DNA of 64,000 nucleotides, taken from a virus. The position numbers and the translations under genes are program-made. Below the pieces are notes generated by a model. The model had not been told where the DNA came from. It ran no database searches and saw only the letters and a program-made list of their open reading frames with translations. The DNA lies in IMG/VR virus record IMGVR_UViG_3300034374_011021, positions 1 through 64,000 of that record; one strand, written 5' to 3'. Of the stretch, positions 24,393 to 48,674 are shown piece by piece; within the stretch, counting starts at the first letter, position 1; each line of letters opens with the position of its first letter.

Positions 24393-24393
24393 A

Positions 24394-24681: not shown

Positions 24682-24684
24682 ATT

Positions 24685-24978
24685 TTAAAAATTTAATATT
24701 TTATTTAGTTTTTCAGTAACAGTATTATACTCATCCATATAGTCTCTTAAAGACTCATATGATTGACTATTTACTTTTTCATTAATAACTGTTTTTAAAG
24801 CTGTACTTACTCTACTATAATGACCTATAGTTTTTACATACTCTGTAGTAGAGTCAGTGTAACGAGCATCAGGCGTAACTTTAACATTAACAGTAACATT
24901 GTTGTCATCAACTGAAAGGAAATAAGGTTCCATTTCAGGGTCAGTGATAGTACGTGTGTATTCTTTTTCTTTAGCCAT
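24685..24978 (-). CDS. Hypothetical 97-residue protein leading the chaperonin operon
   Basis: Starts MAKEKEYTRTITDPEMEPYF, with beta-rich DDNNVTVNVKVTPD and a helical C-terminus. It is the first gene after a near-consensus promoter and precedes groES by 3 bases. It could be a client-specific adaptor, but nothing in the sequence proves this. Confidence 0.6.
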   Translation of the reverse strand: MAKEKEYTRTITDPEMEPYFLSVDDNNVTVNVKVTPDARYTDSTTEYVKTIGHYSRVSTALKTVINEKVNSQSYESLRDYMDEYNTVTEKLNKILNF

Positions 24979-24982
24979 AACT

Positions 24983-25014
24983 ATAATTTAACATAATTTT
25001 TTTAATTGTCCAAA
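24983..25014 (-). promoter_or_regulatory. Promoter of the groES-groEL operon
   Basis: TTTG at 25014-25011, 20 bases, TAAATTAT at 24990-24983 on the minus strand, 5 bases before the ATG at 24978. The -33 box lies in the 3' end of the preceding 65-residue gene. Confidence 0.6.
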
Positions 25015-25199
25015 CTTTCCTCAATTATTTGAGCTTCTTCTATTAATCTAACAAACCAATACATTCCATCTTTTCTAAATACATCTGTACAATGATGTTT
25101 AATTCTCATCTTTTCAGTGTCAATTTGTTTTGTTTCAGGTTCTTGATGAATTACCTGATAAAGAATATCATTATTAGTTTTGATTAAATGCATTTTCAT
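25002..25199 (-). CDS. Hypothetical 65-residue protein
   Basis: MKMHLIKTNNDILYQVIHQEPE opens a small beta-rich protein (MYWFVRLIEEAQII). Its ATG follows within 6 bases one arm of the inverted repeat around the HSP20 gene. Function unknown. Confidence 0.55.
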   Translation of the reverse strand: MKMHLIKTNNDILYQVIHQEPETKQIDTEKMRIKHHCTDVFRKDGMYWFVRLIEEAQIIEESLDN

Positions 25200-25204
25200 A
25201 ACTT

Positions 25205-25218
25205 AGTGAAACCTTAGG
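25205..25218. repeat. 14-bp inverted repeat, downstream arm
   Basis: AGTGAAACCTTAGG on the plus strand, the exact reverse complement of 25695-25708. The pair brackets the HSP20 gene at distances of 9 and 32 bases, so the mRNA ends could pair. Confidence 0.7.
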
Positions 25219-25227
25219 AGAACGGTT

Positions 25228-25662
25228 TTACTTAATTTTTAATGTTTTTGGTTTTGCTTCTTCAGCAAATGGAATAGAAATTTTTAATAAGCCATTATTC
25301 ATCTCAGCCTCAGCTTTTGACAAATCAAACTTGTTTACGATTTTATAACCTAAATTAAAGGACCTACGAGCAATACCTTTTTTGATATAGTTGCAATCAT
25401 TAACATCACAACATTTATCTTCTTCTTTTTTGTCGTAAGCAATTTTTAAGACATCACCTTCTAAACTTAGGTCAATATCTTCTTTAGTTAGACCAGTACA
25501 AGCAACTTCAAAATGAAGTCCATTCTTGTTTTCATAAATGTCTACCGGATGGGGAAATTTAGCCTCAATGGCTGGTTGGAAGTTTAATTCTGATTTGAAG
25601 AAATCCTTAAATAGGATGTCAAACGGTGTAATTGAATTTTCAAAAATTTTTAAATGTGTCAT
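25228..25662 (-). CDS. Small heat-shock protein HSP20
   Basis: 144 residues with an alpha-crystallin domain: VDIYENKNGLHFEVACTGL, then KEDIDLSLEGDVLKIAY, and near the end NNGLLKISIPFAEE with the usual end motif (G-L-L-x-I). A Cys-rich insertion (DKCCDVNDCNYI) lies in the loop before beta 6, which is unusual. An AGGAG sequence lies 9-13 bases before the ATG, one of the few clear Shine-Dalgarno-like sites here. It would hold unfolded proteins for GroEL. Confidence 0.9.
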   Translation of the reverse strand: MTHLKIFENSITPFDILFKDFFKSELNFQPAIEAKFPHPVDIYENKNGLHFEVACTGLTKEDIDLSLEGDVLKIAYDKKEEDKCCDVNDCNYIKKGIARRSFNLGYKIVNKFDLSKAEAEMNNGLLKISIPFAEEAKPKTLKIK

Positions 25663-30148: not shown

Positions 30149-30151
30149 AAC

Positions 30152-30176
30152 AAAAAAGGCTTGGTTGCCCAAGCCT
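30152..30176 (-). terminator. Rho-independent terminator after the secreted-protein gene
   Basis: Minus-strand stem AGGCTTGG/CCAAGCCT with a TTGC-complement loop, followed by a T-run of six. Same GCTTGG-type stem as the terminators at 26482 and 59722. Confidence 0.85.
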
Positions 30177-31510: not shown

Positions 31511-31681
31511 TTATTTTAATTTATTTAAAACTTTATCCCAAAACAAGTCTAGTTTGTCTTTTCTTGCTTTACAACCACAATCATCATAGCCCATTTTTTT
31601 AGCTATGAATAAAGCAATTCGATGGCCTTGTCCAAAGGTAATTATTTTAATTAACAATTCAACAAAACCACCTAGTTTCAT
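31511..31681 (-). CDS. Hypothetical 56-residue protein with CGC motif
   Basis: Frame from an ATG at 31681 to a TAA at 31511-31513. The product MKLGGFVELLIKIITFGQGHRIA...DDCGCKARKDKLD has a conserved-looking C-G-C-x-x-R-K. Such a motif occurs in small phage proteins of unknown role. One-base overlap with folE supports expression. Confidence 0.6.
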   Translation of the reverse strand: MKLGGFVELLIKIITFGQGHRIALFIAKKMGYDDCGCKARKDKLDLFWDKVLNKLK

Positions 31682-32370
31682 TAGATTTGATGACCTCCGT
31701 TATTGATTTTCAAGCTGTCAAAGAATTCCTTACGTGCTTGGTTTTCATTATTTAAGAACACACCTGATGCTTTAGTAGTTACCATTGAAGCTCCTTGATG
31801 TTTAACACCTCTACATGAAACACAATTGTGAGTAGCAACTATAGTAACAATAACACCTTTATTGTTTTCACAAATTTTATCTACAGCTTGATGAATAGCT
31901 GAAGTAAGTTGTTCTTGAATAGCTCCACGACGGCCAAAATGTTCCACAATACGATTCAATTTAGACAACCCAATTACTGAACCGTTTTCACCTACTACAT
32001 AACCAATATGAACTACTCCTCCAATTGTTTGGTGGTGATGTGAACACATTGAGGTAAGAGGAATGTTTCGTTCAATTACAATACCATCATAGCCATCACT
32101 TGGAAATGAGGTAATGTCTGTAGGAGCATCATAACGACCTTTCCACAAATCAAAAACATATGCTTTAGCTACACGACGAGGTGTATCTGAGCTATTGGGA
32201 TCATTTCTCCAATCACATCCTAAAGCATCTAAAAACTTACCATATGCTTCAGCTGCTTCATCTACCATTGACCATTTTTCTTTTTCAGTTAATGGAAAAC
32301 CAGGAGCTATACCATTAGCATAACCTGTTTTTACTACTTCTAAATCTAGTTTAAATGTCTTATTATTCAT
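31681..32370 (-). CDS. folE: GTP cyclohydrolase I (FolE)
   Basis: Makes dihydroneopterin triphosphate from GTP, the first step to preQ0. Zinc ligands are present in MCSHHHQTI and HNCVSCRGVKHQG, with IGLSKLNRIVEHFGRR in the core. 229 residues is normal. It starts a separate transcript (promoter 32381-32412), the next gene after hpt. With queC, queD, queE and dpdA nearby, the product is more likely meant for DNA modification than folate. Confidence 0.93.
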   Translation of the reverse strand: MNNKTFKLDLEVVKTGYANGIAPGFPLTEKEKWSMVDEAAEAYGKFLDALGCDWRNDPNSSDTPRRVAKAYVFDLWKGRYDAPTDITSFPSDGYDGIVIERNIPLTSMCSHHHQTIGGVVHIGYVVGENGSVIGLSKLNRIVEHFGRRGAIQEQLTSAIHQAVDKICENNKGVIVTIVATHNCVSCRGVKHQGASMVTTKASGVFLNNENQARKEFFDSLKINNGGHQI

Positions 32371-32380
32371 AACTTATACT

Positions 32381-32412
32381 TTAATATAATAACTAATTTT
32401 AAAAGAACCAAA
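32381..32412 (-). promoter_or_regulatory. Bacteroidota-type promoter for folE
   Basis: TTTG at 32412-32409, 20 bases, TATATTAA at 32388-32381 on the minus strand; ATG at 32370 in the AAGTTATG context. Confidence 0.75.
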
Positions 32413-32417
32413 TTAAA

Positions 32418-32918
32418 TTAATCATCACTCATTAATCCAGTAATGTATTTTTGATTGCGTTTTAAATCACCTACTCCATCTAAACCATAACCTACTAAAA
32501 AGTATTCATTTTCTAAATTAAACCCATAAATTAAATCATCATTTTCAGCAGTGTGTCTTTTAAACAATGTTACTGGAGTGATTGATTTTGGATTACCATA
32601 ACTAACATGTTTAACTAGGCGGTTCATAGTATTACCTGAATCATAAATGTCGTCAATAATGTAAACATCTTTTCCAGTAATATCCATTTCGATTTGTTTT
32701 GTGATATAGATTTCGCCCTGTGTAGTATCATTGTAGGATTTCGCACGTATAAAGTCTATATAGCAGTCATCCATATGTTTCACTAAATCTGTGAAAAACA
32801 TAAAAGCGCCGTTTAAAACACAAATAAGTACAGGAGGTTGTTCGTGATATCTTTTTTTAATCATGTAGGCAATTTCACCTACTTTGTTTTTAATTTCTGT
32901 TTCGTTAAAGAGAACCAT
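32418..32918 (-). CDS. hpt: Hypoxanthine/guanine phosphoribosyltransferase
   Basis: 166 residues. VYIIDDIYDSGNTMNRL is the PRPP-binding motif, VLICVLNGAFMFFTDL the N-terminal loop, and EYFLVGYGLD the base-binding region of HGPRTs. It turns guanine or hypoxanthine plus PRPP into the monophosphate. In this setting it could rescue guanine released by the DpdA-like base exchange. It overlaps the thioredoxin-like gene by 14 bases. Confidence 0.9.
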   Translation of the reverse strand: MVLFNETEIKNKVGEIAYMIKKRYHEQPPVLICVLNGAFMFFTDLVKHMDDCYIDFIRAKSYNDTTQGEIYITKQIEMDITGKDVYIIDDIYDSGNTMNRLVKHVSYGNPKSITPVTLFKRHTAENDDLIYGFNLENEYFLVGYGLDGVGDLKRNQKYITGLMSDD

Positions 32919-33162
32919 TTGATGCTTTTGTTAAAAAATCTTCTATTGCTTTTGGACTTTCAAATTTCCAAGTATTACCTTCATGTTCCATAACTAAGGT
33001 TGGATACCAATCAATCTTATAACTTTCCATTAAAAGATCATTTTCATCTCCATTTATCATCTCTATGTTTAATTCTTCTTTAAACTGAGAGATAAAAGGT
33101 TTTAACTGTTTACAAGCATCACATCCTGTACTGTAAAAATACTTAAATTTTAAACTCATCAT
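32905..33162 (-). CDS. Thioredoxin/glutaredoxin-like protein (CDAC)
   Basis: 85 residues with FYSTGCDACKQLKPF, a CxxC active site at the start of the first helix, and YPTLVM with the cis-Pro. It could reduce ribonucleotide reductase or other phage enzymes. It is preceded after 4 bases by a second-class start motif, so may have its own promoter within the queE end. Confidence 0.75.
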   Translation of the reverse strand: MMSLKFKYFYSTGCDACKQLKPFISQFKEELNIEMINGDENDLLMESYKIDWYPTLVMEHEGNTWKFESPKAIEDFLTKASNGSL

Positions 33163-33166
33163 ATTA

Positions 33167-33178
33167 TTATAAATATTA
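33167..33178 (-). promoter_or_regulatory. Second-class start motif before the CDAC gene
   Basis: The minus strand reads TAATATTTATAA, 4 bases before the ATG at 33162. It overlaps the last codons of queE, which makes chance composition from intergenic AT bias less likely. Confidence 0.45.
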
Positions 33179-33988
33179 AACAGCTCGTTTAGTATCGTAA
33201 CTGATAATATGATCCCTACCAGTCCAGTTATAACCTACTTCCATACATTTTTCAATTGAGATAGGATACATTTCAATTAATGTCTCTCTAGTATCACCAG
33301 CAGGCATTAACCAAGTTTTCCATTTTGGAATATCCATTTTAACTCTAAATGCTTCAATTTCAGCTAAATTTTCTTCAGTACCATCCCATACTGGTTTGAA
33401 ATGATAATCACCATGTTGATCTAACATCATTCTCATAGCATCATAATTCAAACGGAATTTATTATGTTGGTCAATCATTTTTTGGTCAACTAATTTACCC
33501 ATAGGAGTATTAACATCGATTTTAGGAATTGAATTACTAAACTTAGGTGATAAACTAATCAAACCAATTGGGTAATCAGTTTTAATAAAATGAGATCCTT
33601 CAGTTTCAATTGTAATAAAAATACCTCTTTGATAAGCAAAATGAGTTAATTCATTTACTAAGGCAGGTTGCATTGTTGGTGAACCTCCTGTTAACATCAT
33701 CTCTCTAATATGAGGATTTTCATCATATGCTTTAACAATATCATTAAATGTATAAACACCTTTCTCAGGATGAATACTTGTGTACCAAGAGTCACACCAA
33801 CCACCAGCACCAAACCAACATCTATGAGTACAACCTGTTACTCGAACAGCTATTGTAGGTCTACCTTGTCTTGAACCTTCTGATTGAACACAAGGGTAAA
33901 TTTCTAATACAGGAATCCTTTTATCATAATCTGTGATACGACCTGGTTCCTGAATGTTCCATTGTTTTTCTGTTACTTTACTATCCAT
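33176..33988 (-). CDS. queE: 7-carboxy-7-deazaguanine synthase (QueE), radical SAM
   Basis: Converts carboxy-tetrahydropterin to 7-carboxy-7-deazaguanine. EIYPCVQSEGSRQG and GRPTIAVRVTGC open the TIM-like barrel, then C-x3-C-x7-C (GCTHRCWFGAGGWCD) supplies the 4Fe-4S cluster; the usual spacing is Cx3Cx2C, so there is a 5-residue insertion in the last gap. MMLTGGSPTMQP is the SAM-binding GGE-type motif in variant form. 270 residues. It lies 2 bases after queD. Confidence 0.85.
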   Translation of the reverse strand: MDSKVTEKQWNIQEPGRITDYDKRIPVLEIYPCVQSEGSRQGRPTIAVRVTGCTHRCWFGAGGWCDSWYTSIHPEKGVYTFNDIVKAYDENPHIREMMLTGGSPTMQPALVNELTHFAYQRGIFITIETEGSHFIKTDYPIGLISLSPKFSNSIPKIDVNTPMGKLVDQKMIDQHNKFRLNYDAMRMMLDQHGDYHFKPVWDGTEENLAEIEAFRVKMDIPKWKTWLMPAGDTRETLIEMYPISIEKCMEVGYNWTGRDHIISYDTKRAV

Positions 33989-33990
33989 AA

Positions 33991-34455
33991 TTAACCTTTA
34001 TAAAATGCTGTATTTTTTTCATGTTCACGGAATTCAACTTGAACTACTTTAACACGACCATTAGTTTCTGCTTGTATAAAATCGTTTAGCTTATTATAAA
34101 AATATTCAGCAAAACGTTCTGCTCCTGTAGCTGGAATAACTCGTAATTGAATTACACTGTCTGCTTCCATTTGTTTAAATACTGGGAGATAGGGATCATC
34201 CTCTGCTACAATTGTAGTGTGATCAAGCATATAATCTAACCATGCTTTAGGATTCATACCATCAATAGTACCTTTAGCACGTTTCATACCTCCAAAGTCC
34301 CAAACCCAATTACGTTCATCAAGTTCACCTTCAAACCATACTTTTAAACTTACTCCATAACCATGTAAGAATCTACAATGTGTTCCCTCAGCTTTCCATT
34401 GACGAAACACTGTAGAGTAACCATCAAATACTTTTGTTGATCTAAAACTACCCAT
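33991..34455 (-). CDS. queD: 6-carboxy-tetrahydropterin synthase-like (QueD)
   Basis: 154 residues of the PTPS/QueD fold. Catalytic Cys in THCRFLHGYG, the Asp-His pair in MLDHTTI and the Glu in VEFREHEKN are in place. However, the first zinc His (usually F-x-A-x-H) is absent (VFRQWKA) and HGH reads HGY, so two of three zinc ligands are missing. The same HGY form appears, as I recall, in other phage homologues. It overlaps the thioredoxin gene by eight bases. Confidence 0.8.
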   Translation of the reverse strand: MGSFRSTKVFDGYSTVFRQWKAEGTHCRFLHGYGVSLKVWFEGELDERNWVWDFGGMKRAKGTIDGMNPKAWLDYMLDHTTIVAEDDPYLPVFKQMEADSVIQLRVIPATGAERFAEYFYNKLNDFIQAETNGRVKVVQVEFREHEKNTAFYKG

Positions 34456-34693
34456 TGATAAAATTCATTATGTCTTGATAACTTCTGTTTCCTACAAATC
34501 GACGAACTTCTTGTCCATTTTCTACTAATATTACTGTAGGAACACTCATAACATTAGCTGCTTTAGCCCTATCAATTTCATAATCAATATTGATTTTTTC
34601 TACTGGTGTATCTTGGGCTACTCTTTCCATAGTAGGACTTAACATTTTGCATGGTCCACACCATGGAGCTGTAAAATAAAATAATTTCTTCAT
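34448..34693 (-). CDS. Thioredoxin (CGPC)
   Basis: 81 residues with YFTAPWCGPCKMLSPTM, the classical W-C-G-P-C active site, and SVPTVILVENG with the cis-Pro. It is shorter than host thioredoxin (about 105). It probably serves the B12-type ribonucleotide reductase or the QueE/QueC route. Overlaps with both neighbours (8 bases with queD, 4 with the membrane-protein gene). Confidence 0.88.
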   Translation of the reverse strand: MKKLFYFTAPWCGPCKMLSPTMERVAQDTPVEKINIDYEIDRAKAANVMSVPTVILVENGQEVRRFVGNRSYQDIMNFING

Positions 34694-34845
34694 ACTAATT
34701 CTTCTATAATTCCGATTAATTCACTTAATATAAGTACAATAGTTGCTGTTACCAAACTAAATGGAATAAGTCCATAACCAACTATTCTAATAGCTGATTT
34801 TACAAAACTAATAATTTGATGTTTTTTTGGATCTGGGTGTTTCAT
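34690..34845 (-). CDS. Small single-span membrane protein, 51 residues
   Basis: Frame from an ATG at 34845 to a TGA at 34690-34692, with ATGA overlaps on both sides. The product MKHPDPKKHQIISFVKSAIR is followed by a hydrophobic span of about 20 residues (PFSLVTATIVLILSELIGI). Function unknown; the context gives no holin-like neighbours. Confidence 0.6.
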   Translation of the reverse strand: MKHPDPKKHQIISFVKSAIRIVGYGLIPFSLVTATIVLILSELIGIIEELV

Positions 34846-35054
34846 AATTCTTTTTCATTAATTAACTCGGCTCCTGGGTTATGTTTCAGGAGCCAAGTTG
34901 TTGATTCTTTAAATAGAGGTTTTGCTTCAGACCAGTTATAAGACCAATTAATATTACCTCTTATTAAACCAGTGTAAACTTCACCTTCTTTATTAATCAC
35001 CACATACATTGATGGGTATGGTTTTGATTTTTTATACTGTCTTCGCGTAATCAT
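34842..35054 (-). CDS. Hypothetical 70-residue protein
   Basis: MITRRQYKKSKPYPSMYVV starts a small protein with W-S-Y-N-W-S in the middle. It overlaps the 3' end of queC by 23 bases, so it is coupled to it. I do not recognise the family. Confidence 0.5.
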   Translation of the reverse strand: MITRRQYKKSKPYPSMYVVINKEGEVYTGLIRGNINWSYNWSEAKPLFKESTTWLLKHNPGAELINEKEL

Positions 35055-35883
35055 CTAATACTGAAGATACATACTCTTTTACAAAATCCCAAGTTACTGG
35101 TCCAAATTCATCTGCATAACTTACAGGATCAGGTTTACCTAATTTAATAAAAGCTTCTACTCGTTCTACAGATGATGCTGACTTATAATCACTAAACCAC
35201 TCAGGAGATGGATTATCGTACTGGTCATAAACAATATGTTGAATTGGTTTATATGACGTATTAGTGCGTTTATAAACAGCATTAAAATCAATATTTAACT
35301 GGTTGCAACATTTCTCACCATCTTCTAAAATAGTAAACTTATCACCATCTAAATAAGGAGTATACATTTCTACTCTTTCTGATTCCCAGTTACCTGATTT
35401 AAATGCTTCAAAATCAATATCCCTAAATTCTTGTCTACAATCAGGATAAATTGCATGGTCACCACTATGTATCCCCATTGCTATTGCACAAGTTGTATCT
35501 TTTTGAGTAGCAATTGATAAAGCAACTGATTGGATAATAGATGAAAAGATTTTGTTTCGATTAGGTACAACTGTTGCTTTCATATTTTCTTCAGCATAGT
35601 GACCTTCAGGAACTTCATCTCCACCAGTTACAAGTGCTGAGTTTAGTAATTGAGATAATCCATCTAATTTAATTACTTGATAATTAATTTTAGAGTAACC
35701 TTGTGGTCTAAGTTCTTGATTTAAGTAATCAACTAAAGACTTAGCTCGCTCTAATTCAACAGAGTGTTTTTGACCGTAGTCAAAAGACAGTGCTGTCACT
35801 TCATAGCCCTCGGCAAGTAGATGAAGCAACAATGTGGAGCTGTCCATACCTCCACTTAGTGACAATACTGCTTGTTTATTCAT
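35032..35883 (-). CDS. queC: QueC-like 7-cyano-7-deazaguanine synthase, zinc site lost
   Basis: LSLSGGMDSSTLLLHL is the ATP PP-loop, FDYGQKHSVE, VVPNRNKIF and YPDCRQEFRD follow as in QueC, which turns carboxy-deazaguanine into preQ0 through an amide intermediate. At 283 residues it is about 60 longer than usual. The C-terminal zinc motif (C-G-x-C-x-x-C and an upstream Cys) is replaced by DYKSASS and NTSYKP: none of the four Cys remains, though VERVEAFIKLG and DPVSY align well. The zinc loss may alter the end product. Confidence 0.85.
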   Translation of the reverse strand: MNKQAVLSLSGGMDSSTLLLHLLAEGYEVTALSFDYGQKHSVELERAKSLVDYLNQELRPQGYSKINYQVIKLDGLSQLLNSALVTGGDEVPEGHYAEENMKATVVPNRNKIFSSIIQSVALSIATQKDTTCAIAMGIHSGDHAIYPDCRQEFRDIDFEAFKSGNWESERVEMYTPYLDGDKFTILEDGEKCCNQLNIDFNAVYKRTNTSYKPIQHIVYDQYDNPSPEWFSDYKSASSVERVEAFIKLGKPDPVSYADEFGPVTWDFVKEYVSSVLDDYAKTV

Positions 35884-38411: not shown

Positions 38412-39224
38412 TTAAGCCTTAACAGTGGTTCCGTAACGGATAACACTGTTTGACAATTCAAAGTACATTTTAACGTCAACCAAACCGTTACGGTTCTTGT
38501 TAAAATTGATAAATGTTCCACCACCATCACGCTCTGATTCGCGGCGCATCTCTCCCATTGCATCAACTAAATGCTTCAATTTGTTTGAACCTGCGAATAC
38601 ACCTGCTTTGGTAACTTGTTGAATCAACATAAACGAAGTGAAACTTTTGGTTTTGTTCTCACCTTTGTTGTTCTTTACACAAACATCAACCAACCAGCTT
38701 TCAGCCATTTTACGATCCCAATTATTATCATCACGTACACCATCAATAATTTCAGCAGCACTGTCAACCAAAACTAAATCATAACCACGGTCCAAAACTT
38801 GTTCAATTACATCTTTAGTGTTATACTCTAAAAAATCTTGCATAAACAATGTTTCGATATTTCCAAACTGTGGAAAACGTTGTGTGTATTTAAACATTTG
38901 CTTTTTACCCATCTCACCTGAGATGAATAAACATTTGTTACCTTTATTTTGAGCGGCACTCAAAACATCCAACAACACAGTGGTTTTACCAACACCTGGG
39001 TCACCAATCATCATAATGTTAGTTGCGGCCGGAATACCACCTTCATGTGAAATCAATTTATCAACAGCCAAACCTGTTTTCATAGTGGACATCATTTTGG
39101 GATCAATGTCCAAATTGTCTAATTTGGTAACTTTACTAAAATCAATAAGTGAGGGAACGAAAGTTGCGTTTTGAACGTTTTTGTTACTTGGACGACCTCT
39201 TTTTACTACTTTGATGTTTTGCAT
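38412..39224 (-). CDS. RadA/RecA-like ATPase
   Basis: MMIGDPGVGKTTVLLDVL is the Walker A, and YDLVLVDSAAEII the Walker B. CLFISGEMGKKQMFKYTQRF is close to RadA/Sms and DnaB-type ATPases. It has no lon-like or zinc domain, so at 270 residues it is the bare ATPase core plus a short basic N-terminus (KVVKRGRPSNKNV, AT-hook like). It probably acts in DNA repair or recombination beside UvsX. Own promoter and 3' hairpin make it monocistronic. Confidence 0.75.
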   Translation of the reverse strand: MQNIKVVKRGRPSNKNVQNATFVPSLIDFSKVTKLDNLDIDPKMMSTMKTGLAVDKLISHEGGIPAATNIMMIGDPGVGKTTVLLDVLSAAQNKGNKCLFISGEMGKKQMFKYTQRFPQFGNIETLFMQDFLEYNTKDVIEQVLDRGYDLVLVDSAAEIIDGVRDDNNWDRKMAESWLVDVCVKNNKGENKTKSFTSFMLIQQVTKAGVFAGSNKLKHLVDAMGEMRRESERDGGGTFINFNKNRNGLVDVKMYFELSNSVIRYGTTVKA

Positions 39225-39314: not shown

Positions 39315-40643
39315 TTAAAATACAGTTATAGTATCATCATCATCCTTTTTTTTATTTAATTGGCTTAAGATTTGCTGTTTTAAAAATGCTATTTCTGTTC
39401 TTAAACCTAAAGTACCAGGATCAGATAATAAGGTACTTCCTAATAAAGACTTAAGTCTATTTATTTGATCAATAAGTTCAGGATCTATACCTGCTTTTTT
39501 AGCTTCTTCTAAATCTATGTCTCCGCTATTATCTGAATCTATATTATTGATATAGTTTATTAATTCTTCCTCACTTATTTTTCCATCACCATCAGTATCT
39601 ATAACTTCTTGAATTTCTTCATCTGTCATATCTTCAACCATAGCATTTAAAACCATATCTTGAGCATGATCCTCGTCCCCTTCTTCTTCAGGTTCTTCAT
39701 AATAAAGTTTACCTGATTTAGGGTCCATAAATACAGGAATTGGTTTTTCTTGTTCTTCTTGTTCTAGAATTTGAAGATCTACTAAACTAGCTTCTTCTAA
39801 TTCTTCATCATTTTCTAAAGGTTTAGGTGTATCTTTTTTCTTTAATTGAGCAAAGGCAAAGTTTGCTGCTACTACTAAAGCAATAGCTAAAGGATCAAAT
39901 ACAAAAATAATTACTAATAAGAACCAGTTAATGATTCTATCCATAGTAACTCCTGTTAAATTAGCTAAATATTTTAAAGGACCTAATTCAGCTGCTACTT
40001 CTGAATTATTTTGGGTTTTAACAATTCGGGTCTCTAAATTGATTATCGAGTCGTTGTACGTTTGTACTTTTGTTGTAAGTTGTTCATCTTTTTGGATAGC
40101 CACTTCCAGCTGTTTCTCAAAAGATTTTCTGTTTGCTGAGGAAGAATAACTAATGACATTGCCATTATTATCCACATAAGACTGATTATTGTTTCCAAGA
40201 GCATTTCTTAATGAAGTTATATTTTGTGTTATTGATTGTTTTTCTACCTCATATTGTCCTTTGATTTTTTCAAATGAGGTCTTTTTAGTTTCTAATAATT
40301 TGATTTGGTTCTCTACTATACCTGCTTTATTAGCAGTAGCTTGATAAGCAGCAGATAAGAAACCATAAATACCTGCTGATGTAATTAAAATAAGAATAAA
40401 CGCTGCTATTGTGAGGTATGTTCTTAATACTTTATTTAGTTTTTCCCAATATTGATATAATAAAGATGCTGTTACTAATTTAGCTATCTCTAAAGAAGAA
40501 GCCATTATAATTACAGCGAAACTGGCCCCAGCAAATAATAAACTAAGACCAGTAACACTATAAAAAGCCGCTGATGCACTTACAGATAATGCGGAAAGTG
40601 CTATAATAAATGGGAAAATTCTTTCTCTTATACTATTCCACAT
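39315..40643 (-). CDS. Membrane protein with coiled coil and paired EF-hands
   Basis: Hydrophobic spans lie at about residues 11-30, 33-52, 76-98 and 238-266. Between the last two is a long Gln/Lys/Glu coiled coil (110-215). The soluble C-terminus contains two perfect 12-residue calcium loops: residues 349-360 (D-T-D-G-D-G-K-I-S-E-E-E) and 369-380 (D-S-D-N-S-G-D-I-D-L-E-E). Calcium binding in the cytoplasm or periplasm is inferred; topology is uncertain. A second-class motif is 3 bases before the ATG, suggesting late expression. Confidence 0.7.
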   Translation of the reverse strand: MWNSIRERIFPFIIALSALSVSASAAFYSVTGLSLLFAGASFAVIIMASSLEIAKLVTASLLYQYWEKLNKVLRTYLTIAAFILILITSAGIYGFLSAAYQATANKAGIVENQIKLLETKKTSFEKIKGQYEVEKQSITQNITSLRNALGNNNQSYVDNNGNVISYSSSANRKSFEKQLEVAIQKDEQLTTKVQTYNDSIINLETRIVKTQNNSEVAAELGPLKYLANLTGVTMDRIINWFLLVIIFVFDPLAIALVVAANFAFAQLKKKDTPKPLENDEELEEASLVDLQILEQEEQEKPIPVFMDPKSGKLYYEEPEEEGDEDHAQDMVLNAMVEDMTDEEIQEVIDTDGDGKISEEELINYINNIDSDNSGDIDLEEAKKAGIDPELIDQINRLKSLLGSTLLSDPGTLGLRTEIAFLKQQILSQLNKKKDDDDTITVF

Positions 40644-40646
40644 ATC

Positions 40647-40658
40647 TAATAAATATTA
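40647..40658 (-). promoter_or_regulatory. Second-class start motif before the EF-hand gene
   Basis: The minus strand reads TAATATTTATTA, then 3 bases, then ATG at 40643. It overlaps the ribonucleotide reductase stop region (40656). Confidence 0.45.
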
Positions 40659-42512
40659 TACTATTTCACAAGCTCCACCAGCGCAAGCTGCTTGATCCAT
40701 TAATGCTGTATTATCCGTTACTTCAATAACTTTAGATAAATCTACAGCATGTAATGATTCTACAGCTTTTTCAAACTCTTCTTTTGTAATGGTTTCAAAA
40801 GGAGCTTGTTTATAAGTACCTAAATCTTCAGGTAAGAAAGATAAAGCAGTAAAGTATTCTTTATTTTCATACAACCACTCACCTACTGTATCCCACTCAT
40901 CTTGTTTAATAGTTACTGTAGCAGATACATTATGCATGTTTGAACCTTTTCTATGACCTGGCTTAATCCAATTTTTATTAATTGTTTTAATACGCTCTAA
41001 CAAATCCATAGCTGATTCTTTACGTGTAATAGCACCTTCAGGAGATTGTTGTGGTACAGATACTACTGCTTGAATTTCTGGTTTGAAGAAATCATCTTCC
41101 AACATTTCAGGATGATAAACAGCTAAATATTGATACAACGCTTCATTTTTACCTAAACGAATACGACGCATATAATAATCATCATGCCAAGCATGAATAC
41201 CTGAACTTGTACCTAATACTAATGAAGTAGTACCTGATGGTTTAACTGTGGTAACACGAGCTGCTTTTCTAATACCTAAAATTTCAGCTACTCTTTCATT
41301 TTCATCACAAGCTACTTTAGCTGCTTCTTTCATATTTAATTTAAAGATAGCTCCTGAAGCGATACCTGTCATTCCGATACCTAATAATGCTTCTTTTTCA
41401 GTTGTTTTTCTCCAAACATCTCTTAAATAATGGAAGTCAGTATAACTAGCTTGTAATGTACCAATAAATGCTGCTGCTTTAGCTCTCGCATTATATTCTT
41501 CTTGTGTTTCAATATCTGAAGCATTGATCTCACACAAATTACAGAATTGGTTTGGTTTCAAATTAATTTCGGCACATGGGTTAGTCCCAGCATCTTTATC
41601 ATTTGTAAATAAGAAACCTGGTTCTCCGCTATTTGATGCTTCAATTTTCTTCCATAAATCCAAGAATGTTTCTTTATCGATTTTGCTACGAAGCAATACT
41701 GCTGAGTTATTTGCTCTACCTCGTTGTGGATTATTTTCCCACCAACTTCCAAATTTACAAGTTAACATATCATTGTCATGTAAATTAAATAAAGCAATAA
41801 GAGCAGCTCTACGAATCCCCCCAGACAAAACAGCATCCGCTAAGTGACAAATAATGTCATGTGCTTCTAAAGTTGTTAATCTTTCACCATCTTGTTTACG
41901 GTCTAAAATAGCTTGTACTTGTACTAAAGCAATTTTCAATGGTTCAGGACCAGGTGCTTTACCTCCAACAGTAATAAGTGAAGCTCCTTTTGGACGAATA
42001 TCTCTAAAGTCAAAAATAGGACCAGTAGAAGTATAACCAAAATAAGCTTTAGTTAACATACGAACAGCATCAGCCCATCCCTCAATAGAATCACCTACTA
42101 GATAACGTTTCCACTTAAGTGGTTTTCTAATTTCAGGTAAATTTTCTACATGGTGGGTTTGTACTGAATAACCTACTCCGCATCCTGAAAGTAATAAGAA
42201 CATAATTTCCGAAAATGCTCTATAATCATCAATAGGCAAATAGGAACAGTTAAAAATACGAGCATTGTTTATGTCAATAGGCTTACCAGCAAATTGCATT
42301 GAACGCATTGATGGTAGTACCTTTTTATCATAAACGTACTTGTAGGCGGACTCAATTTCCTCAGCCAAATGAGGGAATTTTTCAATGTGCATTTCCTTGT
42401 TTCGGGTAACCAACTCATCCCAAGTTTCGCGTCTGTTTTTTTCAGGCACGTATTTGGCATACTTAAGATGGGTAGTAATTTCCGACAAAATTTGTGATTC
42501 TGTTGTTAACAT
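40656..42512 (-). CDS. nrdJ: B12-dependent (class II) ribonucleotide triphosphate reductase
   Basis: A 618-residue monomer-type class II enzyme. NCSYLPIDD carries the first redox Cys, NPCAEI the NxCxE active-site motif, and ACAGGACEIV the C-terminal Cys pair (C-x4-C) that thioredoxin reduces. CGVGYSVQ and VKPSGTTSLVLGTSSGIH are the catalytic barrel motifs. It needs adenosylcobalamin, not an iron centre, so works without oxygen. The two thioredoxin-like genes may supply electrons. Confidence 0.92.
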   Translation of the reverse strand: MLTTESQILSEITTHLKYAKYVPEKNRRETWDELVTRNKEMHIEKFPHLAEEIESAYKYVYDKKVLPSMRSMQFAGKPIDINNARIFNCSYLPIDDYRAFSEIMFLLLSGCGVGYSVQTHHVENLPEIRKPLKWKRYLVGDSIEGWADAVRMLTKAYFGYTSTGPIFDFRDIRPKGASLITVGGKAPGPEPLKIALVQVQAILDRKQDGERLTTLEAHDIICHLADAVLSGGIRRAALIALFNLHDNDMLTCKFGSWWENNPQRGRANNSAVLLRSKIDKETFLDLWKKIEASNSGEPGFLFTNDKDAGTNPCAEINLKPNQFCNLCEINASDIETQEEYNARAKAAAFIGTLQASYTDFHYLRDVWRKTTEKEALLGIGMTGIASGAIFKLNMKEAAKVACDENERVAEILGIRKAARVTTVKPSGTTSLVLGTSSGIHAWHDDYYMRRIRLGKNEALYQYLAVYHPEMLEDDFFKPEIQAVVSVPQQSPEGAITRKESAMDLLERIKTINKNWIKPGHRKGSNMHNVSATVTIKQDEWDTVGEWLYENKEYFTALSFLPEDLGTYKQAPFETITKEEFEKAVESLHAVDLSKVIEVTDNTALMDQAACAGGACEIV

Positions 42513-42526
42513 TTTTTAATAATAAT

Positions 42527-43894
42527 TTAGTCTGTTTGTAATTCGAAAAATTTGTTTCTAATAAGGGCTTTGTCTACTGAGTCAATTCCACCAAAATTAG
42601 TGCTGTTGGATTGATTTGTTGGTTCCTCATCATCGTCTATAACATGGGTCGACACTTCAAAATGACCAGTTGAAGTATCTGCTTTCACAGAGAACGTTAG
42701 GCCGTCCATACCGTATCTGTTTTTCATAATGTGAAATCTTCCTGTCCCATTTACTTTATCTTGACGTTTCCTTGATAAGGATATTGCAACATCAGTAATC
42801 ATGATTTTGTCATAAGAACCGGCTGCTTTATCACCTTCAATAATATCATCCTTTGCACCAGCACGATTAACTTGAGATACACTCCAAATAGGAATATTTA
42901 ACTCTCTAGCAAGTCCCTTAGTGCTAATATAAATATCATCAATCTCATCCTTACGCTCACGATTCTTTCTTTTTGAACGAAGAAGATCAACATAGTCAAT
43001 AATAATTAAATCTGGTTTAAAATCTAAATCAATACACTTTTTAATATGTGTTTCAATAGTTGAAATAGATGCCTTACCTGTTGGATATTCTTTGATAATT
43101 AACTGTCCTTCTAATTGAGGTACTAATTCTTCAACTTTTGTTTTATGTTGTAAAATTTTATTTACAGGAATATTAGTAAAGAAAGCGTCATAACGACGTC
43201 CTACATAATCAGCACCTAACTCAAGAGTATAGTGGATAACATTATAACCTAACTTAACAGCATAGCCACCTAAAGCAACTAGTGACCAAGATTTACCACC
43301 ACCTGGATTACCAAATATAAGACCAAAATCGCCTCCTCCTAGACCTCCCATTAGTAAATCATTAAATGGTTCCCAAGGTGTAGGTACAGCTAATCTTTGA
43401 TCTTCTCTATATCTAGACTCAGTATCTTTATTATACTCATGGCCTAAATTTTTGTCTTGACCCGCTTTTAAGGCGTTATCAATCATCATTCTTATAGAGT
43501 CATAATCTCCGGCATTAAGAAAGTCTACACTTGTTAACAACGCTTTTTTAAGCTGTTGGTTTTTACAAAAGTTAGAAAATTCTTCTTCAACATACTTTAA
43601 ATCTTCATCGGATGCTTTATAAGCTTCACGAAGTTGTTCTTTAATTGAGACCTGAAGTACTTCATTATCAATCTTTTTTAACTCTACTTTCAAAACATCC
43701 ATACTAGGACAAGCATGATATTTTTGGAAGTAATCTAGGATATGTTTAATAATCCATTTATGTGCTTGATTATCAAAATATTCTTCACTCAAAACGTCTT
43801 GAATGTTGAGTAAAAATTCCTTGTGAGTTAGCAAGGAAGATAATACTTTGATCTGGAACCCAATACCATATTGGGACAAATTATTTAATGTCAT
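42527..43894 (-). CDS. Replicative DnaB/gp41-like helicase
   Basis: The first 170 residues are the helical DnaB N-terminal region. FGLIFGNPGGGKSWSLVALGG is the Walker A, LIIIDYVDLLR the Walker B, and IWSVSQVNRAG the H-Q/V-type motif of SF4 helicases. 455 residues is typical. It unwinds the fork 5'-3' for the family B polymerase. A phage primase is not in this window. The gene overlaps none but sits 5 bases after the nuclease gene. Confidence 0.9.
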   Translation of the reverse strand: MTLNNLSQYGIGFQIKVLSSLLTHKEFLLNIQDVLSEEYFDNQAHKWIIKHILDYFQKYHACPSMDVLKVELKKIDNEVLQVSIKEQLREAYKASDEDLKYVEEEFSNFCKNQQLKKALLTSVDFLNAGDYDSIRMMIDNALKAGQDKNLGHEYNKDTESRYREDQRLAVPTPWEPFNDLLMGGLGGGDFGLIFGNPGGGKSWSLVALGGYAVKLGYNVIHYTLELGADYVGRRYDAFFTNIPVNKILQHKTKVEELVPQLEGQLIIKEYPTGKASISTIETHIKKCIDLDFKPDLIIIDYVDLLRSKRKNRERKDEIDDIYISTKGLARELNIPIWSVSQVNRAGAKDDIIEGDKAAGSYDKIMITDVAISLSRKRQDKVNGTGRFHIMKNRYGMDGLTFSVKADTSTGHFEVSTHVIDDDEEPTNQSNSTNFGGIDSVDKALIRNKFFELQTD

Positions 43895-43899
43895 ATAAC

Positions 43900-44934
43900 T
43901 TATTTTCTATAACTGTTTAATACTTTAAAAGATTCATTTATCACATATTCAGTGTTCAAAATTGTTTTCCCTAAACCATCTTCATTATATAAACGCATAA
44001 ATGCTTTTAAATTCAATTCAGGGGCTAGTTCATCAATAAATTCATCCAAATATCCTTCATCATTTTCTCCTATAATAGGATTACTTAAATCCATAATCTT
44101 ATAGTTTTTTTCTAATCTATCAGCCTCAAAAACAATTTTAGAGTAAGTAACATTCTCTTTATATTTTGAAGCACATAAATTAATTAAATCACTAAAAGAC
44201 ATAGGACGCTCAGCTAATTCAGGAAACTTTTTTCTTAATCCTTTCTCACCTAATCCTTTTACACCTTCAATTTTATCTGAATTATCACCCATTAATGTCT
44301 TGTATAAGATAAAATTCTCAACTAGTACTCCAAAATTTTCCTTAACAGCTTTTTTATCAAAGAATTCTTTTTCAGCTGGGCGATAAAGAATAACTTTATC
44401 ATTTACCAGTTGCATAAAGTCTCTATCATTAGAAACAATAAACACTTGGGAGTTATGTTTTTCAGGTAACTTTTTACTCAAGTAAGCAATAATATCATCT
44501 GCTTCTGCTTTATCAATACTAACAGTTTTAACAGGTAGACATTTTAGATAATGAATTAATCTAACTAACTGGTCAACTTTAGAGTCATGTTCATCTTCTA
44601 ATGACTCAAAAATATCCCAATTAGTAACTCGAGTCAAATTACGACCTGATTTGTATTCCGGAAGTAGATTCTTCCTGTTAGTGGAAGAACCTACCCCATC
44701 GAATACAACATATAATGATGTGGGTTGAATTTGTTTAATAAGGAAATTAAGTGAGCGAATAAAACCTCCTAAACCACCAACGTGAGCACCTGCCTCATTA
44801 ACATACTTAATAGTTGTAAAGTTTCTAAAGAATAAATTTAAGCCATCTATCAATAGAACTCTATCATGTTTATTTGAGACAGGTGTCTCTTGTTCCATGG
44901 TTTCAAGAAGTTGTAATAGTTCTTTTCTGTTCAT
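43900..44934 (-). CDS. RNase H-like 5'-3' exonuclease (FEN family)
   Basis: The start is the ATG at 44934 (MNRKELLQLLETM), not 44970, since the longer form would begin in the promoter at 44940-44971. VLLIDGLNLFFRNF with its Asp, YVVFDGVGS, and KAEADDIIAYL with VSNDRDFMQLV give the metal-binding acidic cluster of T4 RNase H/FEN nucleases. It removes RNA primers and trims flaps. 344 residues. Confidence 0.85.
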   Translation of the reverse strand: MNRKELLQLLETMEQETPVSNKHDRVLLIDGLNLFFRNFTTIKYVNEAGAHVGGLGGFIRSLNFLIKQIQPTSLYVVFDGVGSSTNRKNLLPEYKSGRNLTRVTNWDIFESLEDEHDSKVDQLVRLIHYLKCLPVKTVSIDKAEADDIIAYLSKKLPEKHNSQVFIVSNDRDFMQLVNDKVILYRPAEKEFFDKKAVKENFGVLVENFILYKTLMGDNSDKIEGVKGLGEKGLRKKFPELAERPMSFSDLINLCASKYKENVTYSKIVFEADRLEKNYKIMDLSNPIIGENDEGYLDEFIDELAPELNLKAFMRLYNEDGLGKTILNTEYVINESFKVLNSYRK

Positions 44935-44939
44935 TACTA

Positions 44940-44971
44940 TGAATATAACAAAGATTTTGTTAATAGCCAAA
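44940..44971 (-). promoter_or_regulatory. Bacteroidota-type promoter of the FEN-like gene
   Basis: TTTG at 44971-44968, 20 bases, TATATTCA at 44947-44940 on the minus strand. It decides the start of the gene at 44934. Confidence 0.75.
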
Positions 44972-44973
44972 TA

Positions 44974-46056
44974 TTAATCTGGCTCATTCTCAAATACATT
45001 CATAGTTTCAAAAGTTTCATCTTCTTCAAAAATGTCGAAGTCCATGCTTCCTAGAACTTTCATCCACTCATTGGCGTGGGCATCCTTATAGGCTTTAACT
45101 TCTTTATCATTGTCATTAATAAAGCCATGAGGAGTCATAATAATCTTACCTCTGGTTGTAACACCATTAATGTGGTTTTTATCAATCTGAATATTAGTAC
45201 GTTTAGCAAATTCAACTTGCTTTCCGTCTTTAATAGCTTTGATTTTACTTGTACCAGCATTAGCAATGTTACCAAAAGTAATTACAAATGTAGCATCAAA
45301 CCACATTGCAAAACCTCCTTTGTTCATAAGTTTTGGTTGACCCATAGGTACTTCAGCTTTAGCTGTCCAAACCTTATTTACACACAATAAAGTGTTTGTG
45401 TAAGGAGATGATTCTTTCCTGGAAAGTGTGATTTTTTGGTTTACATTGTTTCCAAATTGGGTACTCATTGCACCAGCGTTCCATTCATTGTTATTTTTAT
45501 TAGATTTAACAGACATTTCACAAGGTACAGAGCCTATTGAGTCCCAAAGGAACAACAAATCATAAGGCAAACTTCCTTTTTTCTGTTCATCTAACATATC
45601 TAAAATAAATGCTGCTACATCTTCAATAGTATGCAAACTTTCTCGGTCAACATAAAGGAAGAAACCGCCGTAATTTAATACTTCACCTGTTTCTTCATCT
45701 ACCTCCATGTCTACTTGGAGACCCATTTGCATAGCATGTTCCCAATTCCATTTCATCTCAGTAACAATGAATACAGGCAAAACACCCATCTTTTGAGCAG
45801 CTACAGCTGCTTCAATCAAGGCAGTAGTTTTACCTGTATCACTGTGACCTCGAAGAAGTACAATATGTCCCTGAGGAATACCAGGAACTGATGTAACATC
45901 TTGAAACGCCTGGCTAAGAGGAATCCATTTTTGTTCTTTAAACTTAACATTACTGTTAAGCATTTTTTTCTCCTTGAACTTATCAAGGTTAAAATTGGCT
46001 TTAATCTCCGCAGAGACTGCTGCCGTTAGTGATTCACTTTTCTTAGGTCTAGGCAT
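44974..46056 (-). CDS. UvsX-like RecA recombinase
   Basis: IVLLRGHSDTGKTTALIEAA is the Walker A, YDLLFLWDSIG the Walker B. MSTQFGNNVNQKI and NTLLCVNKVW match T4 UvsX more than bacterial RecA. The C-terminus is strongly acidic (EEDETFETMNVFENEPD). It promotes strand exchange with the SSB encoded upstream. Length 360 is close to UvsX (391). It shares a transcript with the SSB gene. Confidence 0.85.
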   Translation of the reverse strand: MPRPKKSESLTAAVSAEIKANFNLDKFKEKKMLNSNVKFKEQKWIPLSQAFQDVTSVPGIPQGHIVLLRGHSDTGKTTALIEAAVAAQKMGVLPVFIVTEMKWNWEHAMQMGLQVDMEVDEETGEVLNYGGFFLYVDRESLHTIEDVAAFILDMLDEQKKGSLPYDLLFLWDSIGSVPCEMSVKSNKNNNEWNAGAMSTQFGNNVNQKITLSRKESSPYTNTLLCVNKVWTAKAEVPMGQPKLMNKGGFAMWFDATFVITFGNIANAGTSKIKAIKDGKQVEFAKRTNIQIDKNHINGVTTRGKIIMTPHGFINDNDKEVKAYKDAHANEWMKVLGSMDFDIFEEDETFETMNVFENEPD

Positions 46057-46067
46057 AAATGTTTAAA

Positions 46068-46898
46068 TTAAAATGGCAAATCACTTTCTTCTTCGTCAAA
46101 CAAAGAATCAAATTTTTCAGCCTTGCTCACTTTAGGAGCAGTTGGAGTCTTAAGAGCGTAGTTTTTAGTAGGAGCTACTGGTTCAGTTTCTGGTTCATCT
46201 TCATCATCAATAATATCTCCTTCTTCTGGTTCGTCAGGAGTCAACCATTTCTGAAGTGCTTCTTTCATCTCATCATAAGAATATTTTTTAAACACATCAA
46301 CTGGATTTGGTTGATTATCTAACCAGCTTTGAACCTCACTAGCGTCACTACTCAAAGGAGTTTCTTTAACCTTTGGCATAATGGTTGTTTTGTTGTAGCT
46401 AGTTCCAGTAACTTCAGGACCTACAGTAGTCAAACTAATGTCTCGACCTGTAGTAATATCAGTAAAGTCACCAACATCCTCATTATCTGCCAAATTCAAG
46501 AAATCCATATACAGCTCTTTACCAAATTGCCATAATTTAACTCCTTCAGCTTCTTCACCACGAACAATAACAGGAGCGAAAATACGCATTTTAGCATCTA
46601 ACTTTTTAGCCAAACGCCAATTTTCCTTATCATTTGTTCCACGAAGTTGCTTCACAAACTCAACAATAGGATCTTTTTCACCCCAGTTGATTGGAGAGAT
46701 CATTACTCGGTTAGTAATGTCATAATGGAAATAAACCTCTGAAAATGGGTTATTTTTGTTAAACTTAGATGGTACAATTCGTACTACCTGCTTACCTACA
46801 CTTGGTTTCCAAAAAATGTTCTTTTTGTCACCTCCGCCTTTTGAAGCAGATTTACTCTGCATGGCGTTTAATCGATTTTTGATTTCATTCAAATCCAT
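46068..46898 (-). CDS. gp32-like single-stranded DNA-binding protein
   Basis: The N-terminal region (LNEIKNRLNAMQSK) is the self-assembly domain, then an OB fold with NIFWKPSVGKQVVRIVP and NRVMISPINWGEKDPIVEF. The usual C-P-I-C zinc pair reads D-P-I-V, so the zinc finger is lost. After a Glu/Asp/Pro-rich linker the chain ends EEESDLPF, which resembles bacterial SSB tips (DDDIPF-type) rather than T4 gp32. It would coat ssDNA and recruit partners. Confidence 0.85.
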   Translation of the reverse strand: MDLNEIKNRLNAMQSKSASKGGGDKKNIFWKPSVGKQVVRIVPSKFNKNNPFSEVYFHYDITNRVMISPINWGEKDPIVEFVKQLRGTNDKENWRLAKKLDAKMRIFAPVIVRGEEAEGVKLWQFGKELYMDFLNLADNEDVGDFTDITTGRDISLTTVGPEVTGTSYNKTTIMPKVKETPLSSDASEVQSWLDNQPNPVDVFKKYSYDEMKEALQKWLTPDEPEEGDIIDDEDEPETEPVAPTKNYALKTPTAPKVSKAEKFDSLFDEEESDLPF

Positions 46899-46951: not shown

Positions 46952-47416
46952 TTAAAGCTCAACAATCTTATAAATCTTTGTATTTAATTGTTTTAACTCA
47001 TTATGGTTAGTCAATAAAATACAATTTCTATAGTGTTGCCAACTCACCATATACTTAGGGTCAACTACTCCCCCATTTAGTTTTTTTATAAGCTCATTTA
47101 AAGCATTAATAGTATATAGTGTATTAGTGTCTTTTTTTCTATGTACTAAAATAGTATTTTCAGGAATGTCACTAACATTGCCTTGCTCAACATTATATGT
47201 AACAACATATTCGTCTGTACTTTTTACATACAAAACAAACATTTTCTTGTACATTATGGAGTATGCGCTTGTAATTTCGTTTACTAGAGAATCTAAATTT
47301 TCCAAGCTAGTAAAAGTACAAAATAACTTATTATTCACGTCACGTATATTAATTGGATCAAAATCGTATCCGGTATACATATATTCGGGTTTATGCAAAA
47401 TCGTATGTGTCTCCAT
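46952..47416 (-). CDS. Hypothetical 154-residue protein
   Basis: The product METHTILHKPEYMYTGYDFDPI... ends in TLYTINALNELIKKLNGG and SWQHYRNCILLT. It overlaps the polymerase-like gene by 26 bases. The C-terminal pattern resembles small phage proteins of unknown role. It may act with the polymerase-like protein since they are co-translated. Confidence 0.55.
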   Translation of the reverse strand: METHTILHKPEYMYTGYDFDPINIRDVNNKLFCTFTSLENLDSLVNEITSAYSIMYKKMFVLYVKSTDEYVVTYNVEQGNVSDIPENTILVHRKKDTNTLYTINALNELIKKLNGGVVDPKYMVSWQHYRNCILLTNHNELKQLNTKIYKIVEL

Positions 47417-48674
47417 AACTAGTTTTTGTTTGTAACTTATATTTTTTAAATATTTTATTTATTTCAATTTCTATATCTTTTTCATCTTCTCCAAGCTCAA
47501 ATAAAAAGCTGTCATAAGTATATAAAACTATTTTAGTTTTACGCCCTCTCAATAATTTATGAATGTCTATCAGTATATACGTGTTGACAGCACTTTCCAC
47601 ATTTTGTAACATATAGTTAAACAATTTTTGTGGATTCATATTTTCCAACTTGTCTTTATAAAAAAAGTATCCAGATATTGGAACTTCTACCTTGCCTTGC
47701 TCTTCAAACTCTTGCCACTTCTCTTCAATAAACTTATTTACTTTTTGAAAAAATTCCAAATGCGCGTACTCTTTAAATACGCCACCATAGAGTTGTTTGA
47801 ACGTAAGCTCTTTTGCTTCTTTATACGAGACTCCGTATAGGTTTGCGAACGTTTGATGGACGTCTTGCCCATTGAAATCCATGGCAACCAAACGAGCAGC
47901 AAGATGAGGATGGTATGCGCTAATATCGAACTCCACAAACCCATACTTCGATATGTAGCTTCTCCTTGAGCCATTTTCTTTATTTAAAGCGGCAAAATTA
48001 ATGCCATTAAAAGAGTTACTTGGTCTACGAGTTGTTGTAGATAAGTTGTAACTGGTAAATACCCTATTGTCTTTGACTGAATAAAATTCTTTAGTGGGTT
48101 CATAGTATTTATCAAATTCATTTTTGTTTATGTTTATACCATTCTTTTCAATTCCGAAGAAAGCCAATGCTACTTTGTTGTTATAAAAGTCAAAGTATGG
48201 GGGTAACTCTTGAGGAATAGTACTACGAACTTGTATATAAATATGTTCGTATTTCTCATAGAGTTTAGCTACTGGGATAAGTTTGTTTGGTTTTAGATAA
48301 TCCGTATTTTGGGAGTAAATGTGTGTATGTACTGCTTGCTCTTCTTGTATATACGTAGGGTTAAGTATGGATAGGTCAAACAAGCTTTTGATTGGTAAGT
48401 AATATAGTGTTTGTTTTTTATCTCGGACCCATATACGTTCTATACTTTGTAGTACACTGTCTATAACCGTTTTATTAAGCGAAAAAGTCTCACTATGGTC
48501 AATACATAATATATAACCTTTAGTGTCATTAAACGGTCTAATATAAATTAATGAAATGTCATTTAAAGCAGGATGAACATTATCATGATATGGGATTACT
48601 TCAACAAATGCATCTTGTATAGGATGTTGTTTTAAATAATCTAATTGTTCCTCTGTCTCTATTAACCAAAACAT
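47391..48674 (-). CDS. Divergent family A DNA polymerase-like protein
   Basis: A 427-residue protein. About residues 212-250, STTTRRPSNSFNGINF followed by SRRSYISKYG matches the PolA TGRLSS...NLQNIP...R region. Motif A: FVEFDISAYHPHLAARL (Asp kept). Motif B-like: AKELTFKQLYGG (K...YG). Motif C-like: LYTYDSFLFEL (Asp kept; the usual H-D-E reads Y-D-S). The 5' exonuclease is absent, and the N-terminal 200 residues show no clear proofreading motifs. It may be a repair, primer-extension or lesion polymerase. Own promoter at 48690-48721. Confidence 0.65.
   Translation of the reverse strand: MFWLIETEEQLDYLKQHPIQDAFVEVIPYHDNVHPALNDISLIYIRPFNDTKGYILCIDHSETFSLNKTVIDSVLQSIERIWVRDKKQTLYYLPIKSLFDLSILNPTYIQEEQAVHTHIYSQNTDYLKPNKLIPVAKLYEKYEHIYIQVRSTIPQELPPYFDFYNNKVALAFFGIEKNGININKNEFDKYYEPTKEFYSVKDNRVFTSYNLSTTTRRPSNSFNGINFAALNKENGSRRSYISKYGFVEFDISAYHPHLAARLVAMDFNGQDVHQTFANLYGVSYKEAKELTFKQLYGGVFKEYAHLEFFQKVNKFIEEKWQEFEEQGKVEVPISGYFFYKDKLENMNPQKLFNYMLQNVESAVNTYILIDIHKLLRGRKTKIVLYTYDSFLFELGEDEKDIEIEINKIFKKYKLQTKTSYGDTYDFA

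Follow-up and report, generated by a model that had tools for sequence, protein, structure and literature searches.

Why would a T4-like phage that possesses its own replicative polymerase and primase keep a second polymerase devoid of proofreading? This puzzle is posed by a gene within positions 1 to 64,000 of the viral record IMGVR_UViG_3300034374_011021 (65.6 kb; this 64,000-nucleotide stretch is termed the window), whose protein family is found in hundreds of aquatic phage contigs. An earlier note on this DNA had described the open reading frame at 47391-48674 as a divergent family A polymerase beside a complete family B replisome, and had proposed for it a role in repair, lesion bypass or primer-making, perhaps on modified guanine templates.

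Identity, fold and active site of the polymerase

The open reading frame lies at exactly these positions on the minus strand, starts with ATG, encodes 427 residues and contains every motif that had been quoted for it. Profile match, structure model and residue alignment identify the product as divPolA1, an exonuclease-dead family A DNA polymerase. Searched as a single sequence, it matched Pfam DNA_pol_A (PF00476) with E=0.0018, its 17.7 bits not passing the curated cut-off of 34.3, and PHROG 17 ('DNA polymerase') with E=7.5e-6; a phmmer search of the PDB sequences found no relative. The proposed HMM comparison with PolA thus gave a weak answer for the window protein alone, but a clear one for its family: a profile of 37 divPolA1 sequences retrieved the E. 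coli Klenow fragment as top PDB match (E=2.4e-4) with motifs A, B and C clearly in register, other members match DNA_pol_A at up to 7e-13, and the relatives of the immuto clade exceed the curated cut-off, indicating that the window protein falls below it because it is divergent.

Structure prediction yielded the palm-fingers-thumb fold, so that the outcome named in the earlier note as speaking against a polymerase did not occur. The AlphaFold2 model (pLDDT 91.8, pTM 0.90) is Klenow-like, and its best PDB matches in Foldseek were Pol I/Klenow structures with E values of 3e-17 to 1e-15 and TMq values of 0.72-0.75 for the leading matches. The protein is a small and much reduced relative of bacterial DNA polymerase I with a Klenow-type fold. 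For structure modelling, three alignment rows derived from named phage records were left out. The gene is under purifying selection, with dN of 0.08-0.11, dS of 0.64-0.91 and dN/dS of about 0.12.

The family was named divPolA1 in 2024 (Virol J, PMC11348598) for 14 phages of 155-190 kb, each also encoding a regular DNAP of family A, B or C, and was described as retaining the palm, with a truncated thumb and an inactivated exonuclease, and as probably replication-related (PMC11348598). The central claim of the earlier note, that a family B replisome is accompanied by a divergent family A polymerase, is hence borne out and had already been published under this name. Membership of the window protein follows from its homology to divPolA1 of Flavobacterium phage immuto (MW353176, gene 1; tblastn, 36.1% identity over 92% of the length, E 5e-70), which is annotated 'DNA polymerase family A', from its presence in addition to a regular DNAP (PolB), from the replication genes downstream and from the loss of the exonuclease acids. 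Compared with the immuto protein (PMC11348598), with which it shares the family, the gene cluster, the position as second polymerase beside a regular DNAP, the inactive exonuclease and the retained palm, it shows no difference in kind.

Searching 50,697 phage records by tblastn gave six hits, comprising four Flavobacterium phage immuto records, Microcystis phage Mel-JY01 and the 484-kb LR756508, and in IMG/VR 97, 312 and 109 divPolA1 stretches, possibly overlapping, were confirmed for three query clades. Among 84,980 bacterial and archaeal genomes, matches were confined to 9 MAG contigs. These contigs (L330-L338), labelled Winogradskyella, Flavobacteriales, Rickettsiaceae, Nitrosopelagicus and Aliivibrio, also carry the partner gene P154 described below in eight of nine cases, the ninth ending right after the polymerase. 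We therefore rejected a cellular origin of the family, as these contigs are probably of phage origin and were binned together with bacterial or archaeal genomes.

The alignment with Pol I, given in ORF numbering with the initiator Met counted, equates R217 with R668, D250 of motif A with D705, K288 with K758, F292 with F762, Y296 with Y766, Q357 with Q849 and D388 of motif C with D882. The equivalents of these residues were invariant wherever aligned among 244 divPolA1 sequences, and in a second, partly overlapping set the same catalytic residues hold, save one Lys at the Q849 position. Likewise, the catalytic Asp residues of motifs A and C and the motif B pattern K-x3-F-x3-YG were found in all sequences aligned there, the core catalytic residues thus being invariant across ~25-30% identity. 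While bacterial DNA polymerase I gives the best fold and profile match and has the same catalytic core, identity to it is only about 14%, and divPolA1 departs from it at characteristic positions. The steric gate E710 is replaced by His (H255) in 242 of 242 aligned sequences and in 81 of 81 of the second set, R754 by Tyr (Y284) in 242 of 242 and 77 of 82, respectively, and E883 by Ser or Ala across the family (S389 in the window protein), motif C reading YDS/YDA and not HDE.

In Pol I, E710 is the residue that blocks ribonucleotides (PMC9324360). The family A polymerase of phage Tt72, which has Ser at the E883 position, is active, its two Asp being the critical residues (PMC9324360), and on this basis catalysis is expected for divPolA1 as well. 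As judged from the alignments, the fixed His at the steric gate appears to be a distinctive property of divPolA1, as CcPol and divPolA2 keep Glu. The replacement suggests tolerance of ribonucleotides or RNA primer ends, and the invariant H255 and Y284 could point to an unexpected substrate.

Regarding proofreading, no exonuclease motifs had been noticed previously. The catalytic acids are indeed absent, as published (PMC11348598), but an exonuclease-like N-terminal domain is still there with invariant residues of its own. The presumed exo I positions, V24/V26, have no fixed acids, and K86 and K87 are fixed near exo II (register from sequence only); together with H34, H60 and D100, these two lysines are the invariant residues of the domain. 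Their fixation in a dead exonuclease domain indicates that the domain is kept for another use, perhaps for docking.

The partner gene P154 and the replication cluster

Directly downstream of the polymerase gene, and overlapping it by 26 bp, lies P154 (46952-47416, minus strand), a gene for a 154-residue protein characterized by its gene pairing and its model. Searches of Pfam, PHROGs and the PDB sequences gave no significant match. P154 is present in exactly the six phage records that carry divPolA1, and it is located downstream of divPolA1 in 198 of 198 loci with room for it. The reverse approach, seeded with P154, found divPolA1 upstream in all 63 loci with enough upstream sequence. P154 is accordingly an obligate partner gene of divPolA1, and this pairing suggests contact between the two proteins. 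Between the window and immuto, P154 is more conserved (58%) than the polymerase (36%). At two loci (L084, L336) another gene separates the pair. Free-standing homing-endonuclease-like ORFs, recognized by inspection, were also observed between the two genes, HNH-like at L021 (9287-9972) and L031 (9284-9972) and GIY-YIG-like at L150 (9323-10210).

The structure model of P154 is confident from residue 28 on and adopts an alpha+beta arrangement, residues 1-27 being predicted to be disordered. Compared with the PDB structures it gave no significant match, with no OB-fold or SSB among the matches listed, and its sole significant match among viral proteins was one uncharacterised phage protein of 37% identity. 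P154 as an OB-fold SSB, analogous to the MP partner of CcPol, is thus supported neither by the model, which is alpha+beta, nor by the fold searches.

The order of transcription is divPolA1, P154, gp32, UvsX, 5'-3' exonuclease and DnaB. All four genes following P154 are on the minus strand: a gp32-like single-strand DNA-binding protein as the next gene (46068-46898; Pfam gp32 4e-11, PHROG 1192 1.1e-18), a 360-residue UvsX/RecA-like recombinase (44974-46056) with 67.96% identity to the product of an immuto gene annotated as recombinase, a 5'-3' exonuclease of the FEN/T4 RNase H type (43900-44970; Pfam 5_3_exonuc_N 7.3e-35) and a DnaB-like replicative helicase without primase domain (42527-43894; Pfam DnaB_C 2.6e-18, PHROG 19 9.4e-81). 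Among the 98 loci with room, the order P154-gp32-UvsX-exonuclease-DnaB was found in 68, with one extra gene in a further 6 and without detected UvsX in 21. The cluster order is the same in immuto and largely the same in Mel-JY01. Furthermore, the pairwise distances of divPolA1 track those of gp32, exonuclease and DnaB with r of 0.95-0.96, indicating that divPolA1 is inherited as part of the replication core.

Beyond the cluster, the minus strand of the window encodes a short ribonucleotide reductase (40656-42512; 618 aa) with a partial match to the B12-dependent class II insertion domain. The reductase gene is separated from that of a RecA/Sak4-like ATPase (38412-39224) by a further minus-strand gene, whose 442-residue product (39315-40643) matches EF-hand but no PHROG. 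The main replicative polymerase is a gp43-like family B enzyme (27542-30172, minus strand; PHROG 262 1.3e-163, Pfam DNA_pol_B 1.4e-32), and clamp loader subunits are encoded at 21390-22331 and 20555-20974. The minus-strand stretch 22779-25662, near the family B polymerase, encodes a GroEL-like chaperonin (22779-24392) and an Hsp20-like protein (25228-25662). The replisome described as complete is therefore only partly seen: PolB, clamp loader subunits, DnaB, gp32 and UvsX/RecA are there, but primase and sliding clamp were not identified in the window fragment. The main polymerase also varies by clade, being PolB in the window and Mel-JY01 clades and a full-length PolA in the immuto clade.

These observations bear on two earlier arguments. 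That a phage with gp43 would not need the enzyme for replication was the weak part of the reasoning, as all relatives amenable to checking have kept divPolA1 and P154 together. As to repair, the fixed place within the P154-gp32-(UvsX)-exonuclease-DnaB cluster favours a role in replication over a stand-alone repair function.

Primase, deazaguanine and loader genes in divPolA1 carriers

A gp61-like primase ORF of ~310-333 residues with DnaG_N/Toprim domains was detected in 12 of 15 long divPolA1 records, namely in the complete phages immuto, Mel-JY01 and LR756508 and in nine IMG/VR records, the three negative records being possibly incomplete contigs of 115-126 kb. The 65.6-kb record from which the window is taken, a fragment, gave no match to Toprim_4. 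A missing primase as the reason for keeping divPolA1 is ruled out by the gp61-like primase of the complete relatives; primer-making, one of the roles suggested earlier, may still occur but is thereby not required.

The window also encodes a deazaguanine pathway on the minus strand (31681-35883), consisting of GTP cyclohydrolase (31681-32370), QueE (33176-33988), QueD (33991-34455) and QueC (35032-35883), and activity on deazaguanine templates had been considered for the polymerase. QueC was not found in the divPolA1 carriers Mel-JY01 (190 kb) and LR756508 (484 kb), nor in three contigs of 166, 162 and 157 kb. With several complete or long divPolA1 genomes devoid of QueC, a role on such templates is not supported.

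Pfam searches for gp59 and UvsY detected neither in 11 divPolA1 records including Mel-JY01, LR756508 and immuto, the T4 and P-SSM2 controls being strongly positive; this absence rests on one HMM each, and divergent versions are possible. P154 takes the position that gene 59 has in T4, upstream of gene 32; in T4 a gene for a homing endonuclease (SegG, of the GIY-YIG type) lies between genes 59 and 32. The T4-like phages carrying divPolA1 may thus load DnaB and UvsX in another way.

Possible roles and relation to known systems

The explanation we favour, with about even confidence, is that divPolA1 is an active, proofreading-less accessory polymerase of the replisome, working with P154 on gp32-coated DNA in short gap-filling or primer extension. 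It would be a catalytically competent family A enzyme that lost proofreading and kept the exonuclease-like domain as a scaffold. P154 would bind it and dock it on gp32-coated single strands, either recruiting or modulating the polymerase, and the pair would carry out short syntheses, such as extending primer ends and filling gaps, at Okazaki fragments as well as at recombination intermediates. The 5'-3' exonuclease encoded nearby, a separate gene here unlike in bacterial DNA polymerase I, would provide the nuclease part of what amounts to a split Pol I. This explanation draws on the Klenow-like model, the invariant catalytic residues, the low dN/dS, the pairing with P154 and the cluster order, as well as on the retention of divPolA1 with either PolB or full-length PolA, on distances tracking the core genes and on the separate primase of the relatives. 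Gap-filling in particular is suggested by gene position. T4 manages Okazaki maturation with gp43, and the need for divPolA1 in this process is therefore not obvious, which counts against our explanation.

The main rival is priming in the manner of CcPol-MP, the PolA-SSB primases of SCCmec and Bacillota elements (PMC7581432, PMC10061031), where divPolA1 with P154 would start strands without a primer, perhaps at special sites or in re-priming beside gp61. The plan is the same in that a truncated family A polymerase is paired with a small, obligate partner encoded close to helicase and replication genes (PMC7581432, PMC10061031), and the altered sugar gate would fit. We nevertheless consider this unlikely, if worth taking seriously, because most long divPolA1 records encode a gp61-like primase, P154 is alpha+beta in its model whereas the partner of CcPol has an OB fold (PMC10061031), and CcPol keeps Glu at E710 (PMC7581432), so that the His is not a shared mark of primases. 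In addition, primase, gp32 and DnaB are all encoded by the divPolA1 phages themselves, and priming is a trait of CcPol-MP with none known for divPolA1. A bolder variant, which we put forward tentatively and with low probability, makes divPolA1 and P154 an obligate two-subunit enzyme whose sugar-tolerant active site with the His gate starts or extends RNA-DNA primers beside gp61 in T4-like phages; this would be a new kind of primase-polymerase in phages, with a partner lacking the OB fold, and might also replace the undetected loading functions of gp59 and UvsY.

Lesion bypass or repair, possibly on deazaguanine-modified templates as in the earlier note, would agree with the missing proofreading and with QueC, QueD, QueE and GTP cyclohydrolase in the window phage, but is rather improbable given that divPolA1 is retained in genomes without QueC and is fixed in the replication cluster, always paired with P154. 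Still less probable is that divPolA1, like T7 RNA polymerase, is a family A derivative that makes RNA or uses ribonucleotides. The universal His for the steric-gate Glu and the YDS/YDA of motif C in place of HDE are in line with such an enzyme; the F762 equivalent, however, is kept in all sequences, the best fold matches are DNA polymerases, a promoter-binding N-terminal domain is lacking, and the His itself may act as a gate. We regard it as equally improbable that polymerisation has been lost and that divPolA1 is a structural part of the replisome, for instance standing in with P154 for the T4 helicase loader gp59. The negative searches for gp59 and UvsY and the location of P154 directly upstream of gp32 would suit this, yet a pure scaffold would not need core catalytic residues that stay unchanged however far the members of the family have diverged.

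Two further groups of divergent family A polymerases can be compared with divPolA1. TV-Pols, predicted to be prim-pols, are likewise minimal and divergent members of family A from mobile elements and viruses, but they occur with D5 helicases and integrases/transposases (or resolvase) and never with nucleases (PMC2579912), whereas divPolA1 is accompanied by DnaB, gp32 and a 5'-3' exonuclease. No profile link was found to the TV-Pol of phage Ma-LMM01, in a weak search without positive control. Similarly, divPolA2 of barbaviruses and vibriophages (PMC11348598) is a divergent PolA that occurs in addition to a regular phage DNAP, but its representative AUR84708 keeps the steric-gate Glu (motif DFKAFE) and its neighbourhoods are variable. 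It gave no significant match to the divPolA1 profile, a weak result as hhalign against a single sequence also misses the full-length PolA of immuto.

The divPolA1 family has been known since 2024. What is added here, relative to the text consulted of its description (PMC11348598), are the obligate partner gene, the invariant His of the sugar gate with the nearly invariant Tyr, and control searches for primase, for QueC of the deazaguanine pathway, and for gp59 and UvsY, of which the fixed partner and the never-varying active-site change appear to be new. The obligate P154 and the single invariant exchange of Glu to His make the role of divPolA1 specifically and cheaply testable. Should divPolA1 turn out to tolerate ribonucleotides or to prime, phage replication would gain a further type of enzyme; gap-filling alone would still make it a split-Pol I solution to Okazaki maturation.
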